A stretch of DNA of 64,000 nt from Methylobacterium sp. 10 (GTDB lineage: Bacteria > Pseudomonadota > Alphaproteobacteria > Rhizobiales > Beijerinckiaceae), in assembly GCF_000519085.1 (NCBI RefSeq), contig NZ_KI912577.1:1803331-1867330 (forward strand). Reading direction: 5' to 3'. Below are positions 5,007-35,335 of this stretch, piece by piece. Below the pieces are notes generated by a model. That model made no database searches. It saw only the letters and a list, made by a program, of their open reading frames with translations, and had not been told where the DNA came from. Position 1 is the first letter of the stretch, and each line of letters starts with the position of its first letter. The translations under genes and the position numbers were made by a program.

Positions 5007-5927
5007 GTGGACCCGACGCGCCTGCGCATCGGGATCGACCTCGGCGGCACCAAGATCGCCGGCATCGTCCTCGATGCCGGTGGTGCCGTTCGTGCCGAGG
5101 CGCGGATCCCGACCCCGCGGAACGATTACGACGCCACCCTGGACGCGATCGCCGCGCTCGTCCTGCGCCTGGAGCGCGATGCCGGAGGCATTGGCAGCGT
5201 CGGCATCGGCATGCCGGGTGCGATCGCGCCCGGCACCGGCCTCGTGAAGAACGCCAACTCGGTCTGGCTGAACGGCAGGCCCTTCGTCATCGATCTCAAG
5301 GCACGGCTTGGCCGACCGGTCCGCGCCGAGAACGATGCCAATTGCCTCGCCGTCTCCGAGGCGGTGGACGGTGCGGGCGCCGGCTCGCGGGTCGTCTGGG
5401 CCATCATTCTCGGGACCGGCGTCGGCTCCGGCATCGCCATCGACGGGGTCGCCCTGTCGGGTGCCAACCGCATCGCCGGCGAATGGGGGCACAACCCGCT
5501 TCCCGCCCCTCGTGACGATGAGCGGCCTGGTCCATCCTGCTACTGCGGCCGGCATGGCTGTATCGAGACGTGGCTGTCCGGCCCCGGTCTCGCCGCCGAC
5601 CATGGCCGTCGGACCGGCACGGTCGCTCCGACCGGTGAATCCGTCATCGCCGCCGCGCGCGCCGGCGATGACGCCGCATGTGAGAGCATCGGCCGCTATC
5701 GGGAGCGGCTCGCGCGTGCAATGGCGGGCGTGATCAACATCCTGGACCCCGACGTGGTGGTCCTCGGCGGCGGATTGTCGACGGTGCCGGAGCTGATTGC
5801 CGATCTGGCAGGAGAGATCCTTCCGCACGTCTTCTCCCCGGGATGCGACACACCGATCCGGATGAGCCGCCACGGCGATGCATCCGGCGTACGGGGTGCA
5901 GCCTGGTTATGGCGCATCCCCACCTGA
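5007..5927 (+). CDS. mak: ROK family fructokinase/mannokinase (Mak type)
   Basis: 306 residues, sugar kinase of the ROK family; residue blocks match E. coli Mak, so fructose (and possibly mannose) phosphorylation by ATP is the best guess. Motifs run in the usual order: phosphate-1 DLGGTK (11-16), catalytic ENDANC (108-113), phosphate-2 ILGTGVGSG (134-142), GEWGHN (158-163), zinc site CYCGRHGCIE (178-187) and adenosine motif VVLGGG (251-256). It starts with GTG only nine bases after dctA, suggesting co-transcription. This regular ROK protein is a useful internal comparison for the permuted one at 33061-34140. Confidence 0.88.
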   Translation: MDPTRLRIGIDLGGTKIAGIVLDAGGAVRAEARIPTPRNDYDATLDAIAALVLRLERDAGGIGSVGIGMPGAIAPGTGLVKNANSVWLNGRPFVIDLKARLGRPVRAENDANCLAVSEAVDGAGAGSRVVWAIILGTGVGSGIAIDGVALSGANRIAGEWGHNPLPAPRDDERPGPSCYCGRHGCIETWLSGPGLAADHGRRTGTVAPTGESVIAAARAGDDAACESIGRYRERLARAMAGVINILDPDVVVLGGGLSTVPELIADLAGEILPHVFSPGCDTPIRMSRHGDASGVRGAAWLWRIPT

Positions 5928-30283: not shown

Positions 30284-30820
30284 ATGAGCACCTTGCCCGA
30301 TGCGCCCACGGCCGATCCGCTGATCCTCACCCTGGAGATGGACCCGGAGACCTTCGCGCATTTCGACGGGCTGAGACGGCGGCATTTCCCGCAAAAGCTC
30401 AACGTCATTCCGGCCCACGCCACCCTGTTCCACCACCTGCCGGGCCTGGAGGAGGAGGGCATCGCAGCGTTCCTATCCGAACTCACGGCGGAGCGGGAAC
30501 CGGCGGAGGTCGCCGTCACCGACCTTCGCTTCATGGGGCGCGGCGTCGCCTTCGCCATCGCCTCCGACGCCATGTTCCGGCTTCGCGACGAGATCGCCAG
30601 GCGCTACGCGGAGGCTTTGACCGCGCAGGATCGGCAGGGCTGGCGGCCCCACATCACCGTCCAGAACAAGGTCGCACCGGATGTCGCCCGCGCCCTGCAT
30701 CACACGCTGGAGCGCGATTTCGAGCCGTTCCGATTCACCTCCCCGGGGCTGATCCTCTGGCGCTACCTCGGTGGGCCGTGGCAACAGCGGGGACGCTTCG
30801 CCTTCGGGCGGCATCGATGA
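30284..30820 (+). CDS. 2H phosphoesterase (2'-5' RNA ligase-like)
   Basis: 178 residues. Two HxTx motifs mark the 2H phosphoesterase fold: HATLF (45-49) and HITVQ (123-127). Relatives hydrolyse cyclic phosphodiesters or act as 2'-5' RNA ligases (ThpR, YjcG groups); the real substrate here is unknown. An in-frame ATG at 30245 would add 13 residues. Its stop codon overlaps the start of the PAP2 gene (ATGA), so the two are translationally coupled. Confidence 0.85.
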   Translation: MSTLPDAPTADPLILTLEMDPETFAHFDGLRRRHFPQKLNVIPAHATLFHHLPGLEEEGIAAFLSELTAEREPAEVAVTDLRFMGRGVAFAIASDAMFRLRDEIARRYAEALTAQDRQGWRPHITVQNKVAPDVARALHHTLERDFEPFRFTSPGLILWRYLGGPWQQRGRFAFGRHR

Positions 30821-31614
30821 GCGAGGAGCCACGAACCGATGACGAAGGCCCCAGCATGAAGGCGCCCCTCCCGACCTATCTCCAGCATCCGCTATTCAGC
30901 CACGCCACGGCCCTATGGCTGCGCCTGCGCCTCAACGAGGTCGGCCCCCTCGTGGCGTTGTTGGGCGTGAGCTTCCTCGGCTACGCCTTCTTCTTCCTCG
31001 CCGACGAGGTCGGGGAGGGGTCCACCGAGGCGCTCGACCGCAAGATTCTGCTCGCCCTGCGCAACCCCGCCGACCTGTCAGACCCCATCGGGCCTCGCTG
31101 GCTCGAGGAGACCATGCGCGACATCACGGGCCTCGGCAGCGTCTTCACCATAACCTTCGTCACCCTGAGCGCGGTCGCCTACCTAGCGCTGACCCGGCGG
31201 CATCGCATCGCCGCCTTCGTGCTCGGCGCCATCGGCGGGGGATTGCTCGTCTCCACGGTGCTGAAGATGTTCTACCATCGGCCGCGGCCGGATCTCGTCC
31301 CGCACGGCATGGACGTGTTCACCGCGAGCTTTCCCAGCGGCCACGCGATGATGTCCGCCATCGCCTACCTCACCCTGGCGACGCTGCTTGCCCGCGTCGA
31401 TCCGAACCGGTCAGTGAAGGTGCTGGTCCTTATCCTCGGCGTTGGGATGACGCTCATCGTAGGTGTGAGCCGGATCTATCTCGGAGTGCACTGGCCGAGC
31501 GACGTCCTGGCCGGCTGGTGCATCGGCGCGGCCTGGGCCTCCCTATGCTGGTTCGTGGCGCTGATCCTCCAGCGCAGGGGCGAAGTCGAGTCCCCCGATC
31601 CTCCGCCGGGCTGA
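30817..31614 (+). CDS. PAP2-type membrane phosphatase
   Basis: 265 residues, about six membrane helices. The three motifs of the PAP2 superfamily are complete: K150...HRPRPDL, PSGH (173-176) and SRIYLGVHWPSD (218-229) with the catalytic histidine. Such enzymes dephosphorylate lipid phosphates such as phosphatidic acid or undecaprenyl pyrophosphate on the periplasmic side. The N-terminal 45 residues are cytoplasmic. The start overlaps the 2H phosphoesterase stop by four bases. rppH begins about 105 bases downstream. Confidence 0.9.
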   Translation: MSEEPRTDDEGPSMKAPLPTYLQHPLFSHATALWLRLRLNEVGPLVALLGVSFLGYAFFFLADEVGEGSTEALDRKILLALRNPADLSDPIGPRWLEETMRDITGLGSVFTITFVTLSAVAYLALTRRHRIAAFVLGAIGGGLLVSTVLKMFYHRPRPDLVPHGMDVFTASFPSGHAMMSAIAYLTLATLLARVDPNRSVKVLVLILGVGMTLIVGVSRIYLGVHWPSDVLAGWCIGAAWASLCWFVALILQRRGEVESPDPPPG

Positions 31615-31719: not shown

Positions 31720-32292
31720 ATGATCCCGCCAATGAAGTTCACCGTCCCCGAACCCGACCTGCCGTATCGGCCCTGCGTCGGAATCATGCTCATCGCCCCA
31801 CCGGGGTCCGTCTTCATCGGCCGTCGCCGTCACGAGGCCGGGCCGGAGCATGTGCAGGGCGACCTCGCCTGGCAGATGCCGCAGGGTGGAATCGATGAGG
31901 GGGAGGCTCCTCTCGCAGCGGCCCTGCGCGAACTGCACGAGGAGACCAACGTCTCGGCCGGCTCGGTCGTGCTCCTCGGGGAGACGGCCGGCTGGCTCGC
32001 CTACGACCTGCCGCCCGCCGTGCTGAAACAGGCCTGGAAGGGCCGTTATCGTGGGCAGACGCAGAAGTGGTTCGCCTTCGGTCTCGTCGGGGACGAGGCG
32101 GAGATCGATGTGCTCTCACCCGGCGGCGGCCTGCACAAATCCGAGTTCGATGCCTGGCGTTGGGAGCCCATGGACGGATTGGCCAACCTCATCGTGCCGT
32201 TCAAGCGGCCGGTCTACGAGGCCGTGGTCGCCGAGTTCGCGGACTTCTCCGGGTGGAGTGAGCGGGCGCAGAGGGCTGCACTGTCGCGATGA
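31720..32292 (+). CDS. rppH: RNA pyrophosphohydrolase RppH
   Basis: 190 residues, Nudix hydrolase. RppH removes pyrophosphate from 5'-triphosphate RNA and so starts mRNA decay. The domain begins [11 protein letters not shown], and the Nudix box GGIDEGE...RELHEETNV spans about 56-78. Q-rich QMPQGG before it and [10 protein letters not shown] at the end are family features. ATGs at 31720 and 31732 are both possible and neither has a clear ribosome binding site. Its stop overlaps the start of the DUF2939 gene (ATGA). Confidence 0.92.
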
Positions 32293-32963
32293 TGCGATTG
32301 TGGTGGATCCCGATTTCACTGTTTCTGACGTGGTTCGTCTTCACGTTGACGCCGTTCTGGATGCTCTATGACCTCGCCTCGGCGGTGCAGGCGCGGGACG
32401 TCGGCTACGTCGAGCGGCACGTCAACTTCCGCATATTGCGCCAATCCATGATCCGGCAGATCTCAGCCGCCGCCTCTCAGCCGAGAGGTCAGCCCGGTTC
32501 CGAGGTCGAACTCTCCCGGGATCGGCAGCGGTTGATCGAGGCTGCGGCGGCCCTGGCCGAACCCCTGACCGAATCCCTGGTGACGGCACAGTCGGTCATC
32601 GATCTCCTTGATGACGGCATTCCGCAATCCCTCGATCTTGGCCCCCTCGGCGGCGATGCCGCCGGTTCCGACGCCGAGCGCAAGATCGACGCCCCCGCCG
32701 GATTGAGGATCGACACGATCTCCCGGCTGATTCCGTACTACCTCTCATCGGAGATGCGAGGATTTCGCACCCTCGTCATTGCCGTACCACCCGAGGCGTC
32801 CCGGTCGCAGCGGTTTCGCTTGCGCCTTCGCCTGCGAGGGTGGTCGTGGCGGCTGGTGGAGATCGAACTGCCGAGCGACTTGCGCTTCCGGATCGCCAGC
32901 AAGGTCGCCCGCGCGAGCAGCCGTACAGACCAGGATGCCGCACCACCGCCCCCCCTGCGCTGA
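32289..32963 (+). CDS. DUF2939 family membrane-anchored protein
   Basis: 224 residues. One N-terminal membrane segment ([20 protein letters not shown]) followed by the DUF2939 signature [19 protein letters not shown] and a periplasmic helical region, with a basic C-terminal part ([20 protein letters not shown]). The function is unknown. It is translationally coupled to rppH by a four-base overlap. A strong hairpin lies 62 bases downstream. Confidence 0.8.
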
Positions 32964-33060: not shown

Positions 33061-34140
33061 TCAATGCACCGTGTCGGGAAGCCGCCGGTTCGTGAAGCGG
33101 GCATTGCCGAGGCCGGTACCGATGGTGAGCACGCCCCACCGCGCGACGCCCCTCATGTCCGACATGGCGGAGAGGCCCTGCACCACGGCATCGTTGTGCA
33201 TCAGCACCACGGTGTCGTGATCCCCGATGGTGGGGATGGCGTCCACCAGCCGTTCGGCGAGGTTGAAACGGCTGCTCTCCCAGTCGCCGGGCAAGTTCTG
33301 TCCACCCCGTTCGATGGTCCCGTCGGCGGCGATGACGCCCGGGCACCCGACTCCGATGAAGGGGGCGAGTTTCAGGCGCGAGCGCTCGGCCCGCGAGATC
33401 AGGTCGTTCAGCATCGCGATCAGGCGGTCGACCGCCTCGTCGCGGCTCGGGGCCGGGTCCTCGTCGCGGTGGCGCCAGAGCTCCGAGCGCCAGATCTCGG
33501 CGCGCGACAGGTCGGAGGCCTTCTTCAGGTTCGTGGTAACGACCCCCGCCCGGATGTTGCTGCCTCCGATATCGACGGCGAGCAGGCTGTCGTAGCCGGA
33601 AAAGATCCAGGACGGCGCGAGGTGAACTGCCCCGATCAGCCCGGCCTCGTCCGGATGATGGCGGATGGGTTCGAGGTTCAGGGCGAGGCCGCCGGCACGG
33701 AGGACCACGCTGGCCCTATCGATGGCGAGCCGTCCAGCGAGGCTGTCGCTGAAACCGCCGCCGACGACGATGCTCTGCGTATCGCGCCACCCCTTCTGAC
33801 GCAGGAAGCGCCGTACTACGGTCGCGAGTTCCTGGGCGAATTCCTCGATCGCGCCGAAGACCACGCCAGCGGCCAGCGGGGGGCCGTCGATCAAGAGATC
33901 GTCGAGGCGCCGCTTACTGAAATCGTGGCTCGCCTTCGCGCCCAGGGGATCGGGGCCGAGCTTGCGTAGCTTCTCGCGCCAATCCTCGACGAGATCGCGG
34001 AAAGCCTTCTTCGATACGCGGTCACCGACGAAGCCCTCGCCATTCTTCAGTTCGATGTTGTAGTCGTCGAGGATGACCGAGGGCAGGTCGCTCGGCGCGT
34101 GGGAAAGGCTCGATCCACGCGTTACCGTATCCGTGCCCAT
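33061..34140 (-). CDS. ROK/hexokinase-fold protein with circularly permuted motif order
   Basis: 359 residues. All core motifs of a ROK sugar kinase are recognisable but in rotated order. First come the C-terminal elements of a normal ROK protein: VVGGGF (125-130, adenosine motif) and GLIGAVHL (167-174). Then follow the N-terminal elements: DIGGSN (190-195, phosphate-1), GCPG (265-268), the catalytic candidate HND (315-317) and TIGTGLGNA (339-347, phosphate-2), after which the protein ends. The zinc site CxCGxxGCxE of ordinary ROK kinases is absent. Residues 1-100 (for example DPLGAKASHDFSKRRLDDL) are not recognised. All nucleotide-binding parts are kept, so kinase activity on an unknown sugar is plausible. 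No sugar transporter is nearby. No signal peptide. Confidence 0.8.
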   Translation of the reverse strand: MGTDTVTRGSSLSHAPSDLPSVILDDYNIELKNGEGFVGDRVSKKAFRDLVEDWREKLRKLGPDPLGAKASHDFSKRRLDDLLIDGPPLAAGVVFGAIEEFAQELATVVRRFLRQKGWRDTQSIVVGGGFSDSLAGRLAIDRASVVLRAGGLALNLEPIRHHPDEAGLIGAVHLAPSWIFSGYDSLLAVDIGGSNIRAGVVTTNLKKASDLSRAEIWRSELWRHRDEDPAPSRDEAVDRLIAMLNDLISRAERSRLKLAPFIGVGCPGVIAADGTIERGGQNLPGDWESSRFNLAERLVDAIPTIGDHDTVVLMHNDAVVQGLSAMSDMRGVARWGVLTIGTGLGNARFTNRRLPDTVH

Positions 34141-34291
34141 GCTCGATCGATCCTTTCAGAAAGAGAGTAATGCCGGCCGTCAAGGTCCGGCCGCACTGGC
34201 CCGCCGAGAAGATTCGGCATGGCCAGCGGTGCAAGCGTTCTCGTCGCGCGGGTGTTCCCTCGGCGACGCGTTCCACATCTCGCGAGAGGGG

Positions 34292-34675
34292 CTACTTCGA
34301 CTTGGCGGGAACGGTCTCGCCGGGGGGCGCCTTCGGTTGGCGGGCCTCCATCAGGTCCTCCGCCTTCTCTTCGTCGGTATCGCCACTCTGCTCGATCGCC
34401 TTCTCGGGGTTGGTGGCAAGCGCCTTGATGATCGCGACGAGGCGATCGCACTCGCCCTCGTACTTGTACGTCTCGAGGATGATCGCAGCGTCGCGCAGGG
34501 TGCGCAGGTCGCGCACCGCCTGCTTGTTGGCAGTCTCTCGAAGCTCGGACTTGTCGGCGATAGCCTCTTCGAGCTTCGCCCCCTTCACGTCGCACGCGGC
34601 CTTGGCGTTTCCTGTCGTATAGGCGCTGAGCGTCGTGGCGAAGAGGACGAGAGCGGTGGCGAGCAGGGTACGCAT
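34292..34675 (-). CDS. Small exported protein of unknown function
   Basis: 127 residues. Signal peptide 1-26 (cleavage NAKA/ACD). The mature part is mostly helical and charged, with two cysteines (CDVKGAKLEEAIADKSELRE as first block, then GECDRLVAIIKAL) that could form a disulfide. The C-terminal 35 residues are Glu/Lys/Pro-rich. No family recognised. The 151 bases between it and the ROK gene contain a weak GCCGG/CCGGC hairpin (34173-34195) and no other feature. Confidence 0.6.
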   Translation of the reverse strand: MRTLLATALVLFATTLSAYTTGNAKAACDVKGAKLEEAIADKSELRETANKQAVRDLRTLRDAAIILETYKYEGECDRLVAIIKALATNPEKAIEQSGDTDEEKAEDLMEARQPKAPPGETVPAKSK

Positions 34676-34714: not shown

Positions 34715-35143
34715 TCAGGCGTAGTGGGGGAAACGGCGCAGGAGGCCATTGGCGAGGGCGATGAGCTGGCTCGGGCGGTAGGGCTTCGGCACGAAGATTG
34801 ATTCCGTCACCGCATCCGCCTGCGAGAGGCTCCCACGTCCGCCCGACGTGTAGATGACCGGAAGGTTCGGACGCAGGCGCCGCGCCCGGCGGGCAAGGGA
34901 GAGGCCATTGGTGTTGCGGGCCAAATCGATATCGGTGAAGAGCAGATCGACCCGTTCCCGAGCCAGGATGTCCTCGGCCTCCTCGGCATCGGCGGCGCTG
35001 AGGACGCGATAGCCTTCGTCGATGAGAGCTTCGACGGCTAGTTCGCACACCATGGCTTCATCCTCCACCACCAGAACGGTTTCGGATCCGCGGACGGAGC
35101 CGAAGTTTGGCAGCGCAGAGGCAGCGTAAGCGACAGGGATCAT
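34715..35143 (-). CDS. Single-domain response regulator
   Basis: 142 residues: a short N-terminal extension and one REC domain (VLVVEDEAMVCELAVEALI; phospho-acceptor aspartate in LLFTDIDLA; TSG in place of the usual Thr/Ser switch; lysine in FVPKPYRPSQL). It resembles the stand-alone regulators coupled to HWE/HisKA_2 kinases in this order. No kinase gene is adjacent. The ATG at 35143 has GGAG upstream on the minus strand. It is 39 bases upstream of the exported-protein gene on the same strand. Confidence 0.85.
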   Translation of the reverse strand: MIPVAYAASALPNFGSVRGSETVLVVEDEAMVCELAVEALIDEGYRVLSAADAEEAEDILARERVDLLFTDIDLARNTNGLSLARRARRLRPNLPVIYTSGGRGSLSQADAVTESIFVPKPYRPSQLIALANGLLRRFPHYA

Positions 35144-35335
35144 GACGCAACTCCAACTCACCCGGGGCGGGACGAGAAGCCCGACGCCGGATCGTCACAC
35201 CAACGGGAGTGGCGGCCGCGATGTTCGGTCCCGTTCACTCGAATTGCGCGGACTTGGTAAGCAATGCCTTAACCCTACCGGACCGGCCTCGGTCGTCCCG
35301 GGACGGAATGGGGCGGCGGGACAGCGCACGCTCCC

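Follow-up and report, generated by a model that had tools for sequence, protein, structure and literature searches.

One reverse-strand gene of the window, by which we mean the whole analysed stretch of 64,000 nucleotides from Methylobacterium sp. 10, appears to encode a naturally occurring, circularly permuted member of the ROK branch within the actin-like (ASKHA) sugar kinases, a reading to which we assign a probability of roughly 0.78. At the level of sequence profiles the conserved circular permutant is real, and it comes with a confident structural model. The two halves of the protein correspond to the two parts of the ROK domain in exchanged order (Table 1). The N-terminal half contains the adenosine motif VVGGGF (residues 125-130) and DEAGLIGA (164-171), and the C-terminal half contains DIGGSN (190), GGQNLPGDW (279-287), HND (315) and TIGTGLGN (339). 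A sequence-only reading of the window had proposed that the ROK core is circularly permuted in this protein, and this proposal is now supported by profile-profile alignment, by shuffled controls, by the order kept in relatives and by structure prediction. The places it gave for VVGGGF, GLIGAVHL (167), DIGGSN, HND and TIGTGLGNA are all correct, but the tail behind the phosphate-2 motif, which it counted as eleven residues, has twelve when counted from the A of GTGLGNA. It had also contrasted the protein with a fructokinase at 5007-5927 in the usual ROK order, and that gene product indeed matches the Pfam ROK model in normal order over positions 2-292 of 294.

Table 1. Features of the window around the permuted gene (positions counted from the first nucleotide of the window).
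Feature	Position	Strand	Remarks
Gene of the permuted ROK-type protein	33061..34140	-	359 aa plus stop; start codon at 34140, stop at 33061-33063
N-terminal half, residues 1-180	33601..34140	-	residues 75-177 correspond to the ROK C-terminal part (ROK 209-304)
C-terminal half, residues 181-359	33064..33600	-	corresponds to the ROK N-terminal part (ROK 6-147)
Linker from old C terminus to old N terminus, about residues 177-186, SWIFSGYDSL	33583..33612	-
Possible EcfG-type promoter of the window clade, GGAAC-N16-CGCT	34234..34258	-	118 bp upstream of the start codon
Small 127-aa protein, signal-like N terminus (by eye)	34292-34675	-	upstream of the permuted gene
Stand-alone response-regulator receiver domain	34715-35161	-	two genes upstream of the permuted gene
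DUF2939 protein	32289-32963	+	convergent with the permuted gene
NUDIX protein	31720-32292	+	convergent with the permuted gene
PAP2 protein	30778-31614	+	convergent with the permuted gene

For profile comparisons the permuted family was represented by an alignment (A1) of 50 of the 52 cluster representatives (<75% identity) of 146 loci, and ROK by a reference profile of 20 normal-order ROK-fold proteins that includes the polyphosphate-glucokinase-like protein L180. The Pfam ROK model aligns to residues 187-352 of the window protein with its positions 2-142 of 294 (E 2.6e-5), and the score of 24.3 bits lies above the gathering cut-off of 22.9 with half of the domain only; 49 of the 50 family members match this model at E <=1. 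The window protein has no uninterrupted ROK domain of normal order, as Pfam covers model positions 2-142 only and the C-terminal part sits upstream of them. With the single protein sequence, rotation left the Pfam match no longer than before (24.6 bits after and 24.3 bits before rotation), and we therefore turned to profile-profile alignment, since the signal needs profiles. In its native order the family profile aligned to ROK in two pieces with hhalign, residues 185-352 to ROK 6-147 (score 96.6) and residues 75-177 to ROK 209-304 (50.9). After rotation at residue 180 the same profile aligned in a single piece, 5-356 to ROK 6-304, with a score of 126.0 and an E-value of 2.6e-17. When the native profile was compared with a tandem ROK-ROK profile, the alignment ran across the junction (75-352 to 209-453, E 3.6e-18). 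Among 18 rotation points at steps of 20 residues, position 180 gave the top score, followed by 140 and 160 with 110.3.

Taken separately, the C-half profile aligned to ROK with a score of 95.5 (E 3.5e-14) and the N-half profile aligned to the 20 normal-order proteins with a score of 50.7 (E 6.1e-7). When the columns of the N-half were shuffled (n=200), the score never exceeded 26.4 for the N-half alone (50.7 unshuffled) or 103.8 for the rotated profile (126 unshuffled). At the profile level, the alignment of residues 75-177 to ROK 209-304 puts residues 125-175 where ROK has its C-terminal adenosine-binding part, as had been expected of a permutant. One could still argue that the N-terminal half is foreign to ROK, a leader in which VVGGG and GLIGA arose by chance, because Pfam found no match in the N-half alone and a PDB sequence search with the N-half profile returned no ROK among its matches. 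However, the profile match falls at the correct place of ROK and far above 200 shuffles, ROK-type proteins lead the structural matches of the N-half (see below), and rotation turns two pieces into one full-length alignment. A foreign leader is thus largely refuted and very improbable. Residues 1 to about 74 have no reliable hhalign alignment to ROK; in one MAFFT alignment the invariant His14 comes to lie near the ROK ExGH motif, with a GDRxS stretch close to where the zinc motif ends.

The AlphaFold2 model built with alignment A1 reached a pLDDT of 92.2 and a pTM of 0.89. The block around the linker between the old termini has a pLDDT of 96-98 in this model, and W178 and D184 within it are nearly invariant in the 50-sequence alignment. 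A Foldseek search with the full model gave 52 matches at E <=0.001. The top match was 2yhy (N-acetylmannosamine kinase) over 182 columns, and ranks 3, 4, 6 and 11, which are probably ROKs, aligned over 168-179 columns, roughly half the length of the model. Tandem hexokinases aligned over 413-431 columns with an rmsd of 30-34. Such long alignments are expected when a permuted chain bridges a duplicated fold, yet they are not specific: long and poor alignments were also obtained for Hsp70s, with up to 367 columns at an rmsd of 18, and for single glucokinases, with about 291-295 columns at an rmsd of 11-12, and the tandem hexokinases were dropped as proof of permutation. The N-half was modelled separately from 28 sequences (A2, residues 1-179) with a mediocre pLDDT of 75.3. 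In the Foldseek search with this model no match fell under E 0.001, and the top 17 matches, with E-values from 0.0069 to 8e-2, were ROK-type kinases or repressors by name. Judged by Foldseek, both predicted halves would thus resemble ROK structures, the N-half weakly.

Many bacteria from soil or associated with plants share the permuted arrangement. Of the 146 family loci, L001 is the window itself; three pairs of loci share one protein each, which leaves 143 distinct proteins. All 146 contain the six core motifs in permuted order by a relaxed regular expression (139 by a strict one), which answers the question whether homologues conserve the order, and in all of them the protein ends 6-53 residues after GTGLGN. 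The closest named relatives, among the best 80 of at least 552, are Methylobacterium proteins with 95-98% identity. Codon differences between the window gene and its counterparts in L002, L003 and L004 are mostly synonymous (62 synonymous and 9 non-synonymous, 60 and 8, and 68 and 14, respectively), and the more distant L019 differs by 96 of each kind. At E <=0.001 the taxonomic family yielded matches in 44 of 199 genomes, the order in 43 of 297 and the phylum in 45 of 398, counts that include weak matches to ordinary ROKs and fragments and are based on up to 10, 6 and 5 scored candidates per genome, respectively. The phylum set contained full-length members from outside the class (L142-L146). 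Matches were also present in 206 plasmid records, mostly of Rhizobium and Sinorhizobium; in 204 of these a single place accounts for at least 80% of the query, and each of the 40 plasmid matches listed consists of one piece. Phage records gave no match at E 1e-5. A search of 299 genomes with the rotated profile found both halves in 16 genomes at 18 loci, each time as two adjacent pieces in swapped order. Its other matches were to the first half only, several of them at ordinary ROK loci, plus one fragment of 33 positions, and a normal-order full-length relative was not seen among the up to seven candidates scored per genome. An assembly or annotation artefact has next to no probability, as many genomes, with 146 loci and 143 distinct proteins between them, show the same order, and nearly all of the matching plasmid records align over most of the query in one place; a local assembly error, which the sequence-only reading had named as a possible refutation, is ruled out by this sharing. 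Three genomes (G148, G365 and G387) contain two full-length permuted copies each, and in G365 the additional 33-position fragment lies about 3.6 kb from one of these copies.

Where the matches listed carry an annotation, it reads 'ROK family protein'. Automatic annotation conceals the permutation, because it is based on a half-domain match only. We searched full-text literature for an account of a permuted ROK and found none in that search. To our knowledge, natural permutants of actin-like sugar kinases have rarely or never been reported. Circular permutation among the fold groups of kinases is in itself a known general theme (PMC1079889). The permuted order described here has remained stable in many genera and is plausible for a working catalyst, and it offers a natural test of which chain connections a cleft of the hexokinase type needs for closure and catalysis.

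All nucleotide-contact motifs were said to be kept in the window protein, and in the 50 aligned sequences their key residues are indeed invariant or nearly so. Invariant are D190, G192, G193 and N195 of phosphate-1, H315-N316-D317, T339 and G341-N346 of phosphate-2, and G127-G129 of the adenosine motif; I340 within TIGTGLGN (residues 339-346) is nearly invariant, and the QNLPGxW loop is invariant except for one nearly invariant residue. The phosphate-1, catalytic ND, phosphate-2 and adenosine motifs are present at all 146 loci. In ROKs and hexokinases the phosphate-1, HND, phosphate-2 and GGG motifs serve in binding of the Mg-nucleotide and in-line transfer. ROKs contact the sugar with Glu residues in ExGH and GCxE. 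Neither of these Glu residues is obviously kept in the permuted family, and in one MAFFT alignment only the invariant His14 and Asp40 lie nearby. The QNLPGxW loop occupies what is presumably the position where ROKs hold the sugar.

At the level of sequence profiles, the chain starts inside the segment that follows the phosphate-2 hairpin in ROKs and continues with the C-terminal lobe and its adenosine motif. A short conserved linker then crosses the old C-to-N junction, and the chain ends with the N-terminal lobe, which brings phosphate-1, the substrate loop, the catalytic Asp and phosphate-2. Folded in this way, the protein should form the usual two-lobed cleft, in which ATP-Mg or polyphosphate would be bound between phosphate-1, phosphate-2 and VVGGG. 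A hexose, most likely glucose, would be held by the QNLPGxW loop, and Asp317 of HND would act as the catalytic base in phosphorylation of a hexose hydroxyl. We regard this cleft, its phosphoryl donors and the Asp317-based phosphorylation of a hexose as probable on the basis of the conserved residues, and the protein is most likely a putative active hexose kinase. Alternatively, it could be a catalytically dead permuted ROK that works as a sugar or nucleotide sensor or as a scaffold, comparable to ROK repressors without their DNA-binding domain. This would agree with the zinc motif found at 0 of 146 loci, with the missing sugar-binding Glu residues, and with the comparison of 68 long loci, in which no operon partner common to the lineages was recognised. 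However, one would not expect after a loss of activity that HND, the catalytic motif, and the key nucleotide-motif residues stay invariant over 50 diverse sequences, and the zinc motif is missing also from normal-order ROKs that resemble polyphosphate glucokinases. Therefore, a dead sensor or scaffold seems unlikely, and we continue with the putative hexose kinase.

The absence of the zinc site had been noted before for the window protein, and CxCGxxGC is absent from the whole family. The motif is not universal in the ROK fold either, being exact in 15 of the 20 normal-order reference proteins. Five normal-order ROK-fold proteins of Alphaproteobacteria with 242-271 aa (L180, L192-L194 and L223) lack it, and three of these (L180, L192 and L193) reach 111-121 bits against a cut-off of 250 for NF045942, the model of polyphosphate-glucose phosphotransferase, though they resemble polyphosphate glucokinase. 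Since these normal-order proteins are also without the zinc motif, its absence from the permuted family is probably not a result of the cut. At E <=0.1, 45 of the 50 family members match NF045942 (best E 2.6e-7) and 41 match the NCBIfam model of ROK glucokinase (best E 9.6e-10); the window protein stays far below both cut-offs, with 22.4 against 250 bits for NF045942. Trees were calculated separately for the lobes. The N-terminal-lobe tree had 37 rows (13 of the family, 5 of the polyphosphate group and 19 ROKs, with L227 and L226 left out), and in it the family joined the zinc-less polyphosphate-glucokinase-like ROKs with a support of 92/84 and with long-branch warnings. In the C-terminal-lobe tree the placement of the family was not resolved. 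An affiliation of the family's first lobe with the zinc-less group thus has moderate support, and because the permuted family groups with zinc-less normal-order ROKs, the loss of zinc may have preceded the permutation.

The different behaviour of the two lobes could also imply a chimera, in which a polyphosphate-glucokinase-like lineage supplied the N-terminal lobe and another ROK lineage the C-terminal lobe that was placed ahead of it. Besides the grouping of the N-terminal lobe, for which the C-terminal lobe shows no counterpart, the family aligns in its C-half slightly better to the polyphosphate group (101.4) than to ROK (96.6), and for its N-half an alignment is obtained with ordinary ROK (50.7) but not with the polyphosphate group (15.4). 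The stems of the family are very long, however, with 3.38 and 3.76 changes per column, and make the placement unsure. Moreover, the polyphosphate group has a shortened C-lobe and its profile comprises only 6 sequences, which means that a missed alignment is to be expected. We therefore consider a chimera improbable and retain circular permutation of a single ROK core.

Compared with known systems, the permuted family shares phosphate-1, the PG loop, ND, GTGxG and GGG with the ROK family (PF00480), to which the fructokinase-like protein at 5007-5927 and the ROK hexokinase 3vov belong. It differs from that family by its swapped halves, by the lack of CxCGxxGC, by an ExGH Glu that is not evident and by GG(S/T)N instead of GGTK in phosphate-1. 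With the polyphosphate-glucose phosphotransferase group (NF045942; L180, L192-L194 and L223) it has in common the absence of the zinc motif as well as NDA/D-x-VQG and GTGxGxAxF-like motifs, but the members of that group have the normal order, 242-271 aa and a shorter C-lobe. The Hexokinase model of Pfam (PF00349) matched 34 of the 50 permuted members at E <=1 (best 9.3e-4). Hexokinases of this family have a GGTN signature in phosphate-1, which resembles that of the permuted proteins, and hexokinases occur among the Foldseek matches. In contrast to the permuted family, they are eukaryote-type, much longer and of normal order.

Sequences upstream of many permuted genes may point to the general stress response. 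EcfG-type promoters were described by the motif GGAAC-N16-CGTT in R. etli (PMC3892343) and by GGAAC-N17-20-GTT in Sphingomonas (PMC6599016). A first, looser pattern was present at 38 of the 146 loci, against 15 on the reverse strand and a mean of 2.1 (maximum 8) in mononucleotide shuffles. The pattern GGAAC-N16-18-BGTT (B = C, G or T) occurred within 150 bp upstream in 19 of the 52 representatives. This is a density of 2.4 per kb, while the reverse strand has 0.38 and the rest of the loci 0.037 per kb, and in 500 mononucleotide shuffles the mean was 0.15 of 52 and the maximum 3. Over all 146 loci the pattern was present at 33. A relaxed test allowed one mismatch to GGAAC-N15-18-CGTT within 120 bp. 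The Methylobacterium group had such a site at 7 of 26 loci, with 0 of 26 exact, and loci outside the class at 0 of 5. The 115 other loci are alphaproteobacterial by label or kinship, except for L046 (a MAG of Gammaproteobacteria), which has no promoter motif, and L079 (labelled Proteobacteria only), which has one with one mismatch. At 89 of these 115 a site was found; it was exact at 22 loci, and at 68 of the 89 its distance to the gene was 50-69 bp. The controls in the 115 gave 23 on the reverse strand, 6 far upstream and 32 within the gene, so the relaxed form has a high background, and the comparison is confounded by relatedness and GC content. Among four further named species outside Methylobacterium, exact sites 63-78 bp upstream were present in all four, R. 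johnstonii pRL10, Bradyrhizobium p195_2, S. meliloti 1021 and Phyllobacterium zundukense.

The candidate of the window clade (Table 1) has one mismatch to GGAAC-N16-CGTT and is found also in L002-L004 and L082, and M. bullatum (L158) has a similar GGAAC-N16-CGCT near-match. No such near-match was found in L026, the protein of which is 95% identical to that of the window. We consider transcription driven by EcfG fairly probable for many of the alphaproteobacterial relatives and rather doubtful for the window's own clade. Accordingly graded, stress control of the permuted gene is likely in several lineages, and in the window's clade it is only possible, since the near-match there lies as far as 118 bp upstream and is missing from L026. 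If the promoter link is true, the permuted protein would add an as yet unstudied enzyme to the general stress response of rhizobia and further Alphaproteobacteria. In Bradyrhizobium, trehalose synthesis was found to be under EcfG control (PMC8092242). EcfG control of the permuted gene would fit a supply of hexose phosphate under stress, for example towards trehalose. A connection of the permuted kinase with trehalose is a guess taken from one neighbouring otsB gene. The combined picture of a ROK-fold permutant near the zinc-less polyphosphate-glucokinase branch that acts in the general stress response and phosphorylates glucose from ATP or polyphosphate for trehalose-type metabolism is tentative, and we hold it to be possible at best.

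The gene neighbourhood differs between lineages. In the 68 long loci, compared through the 45 largest ORF clusters, recurrent neighbours were not the same and no functional partner common to the lineages was recognised. In the window, the small protein encoded directly upstream had no Pfam match at E 0.01. Neighbours at loci of the Bradyrhizobium type look, on reading of their sequences, like L21, L27, a GNAT, a DMT transporter and Obg. In S. meliloti 1021 the permuted gene lies at about 477065-478135 of pSymB; an assignment to the locus tags SMb20482-SMb20486 was wrong, as SMb20484-20487 are the SupA-D transporter genes. Two neighbourhoods, neither of them general, bring the gene next to annotated genes in divergent orientation: a trehalose-phosphatase gene, otsB, in R. 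johnstonii pRL10 (L155, 7058-9047), and a peptidase of the NAGGN osmoprotectant system in S. meliloti (L190, 4639-7041).
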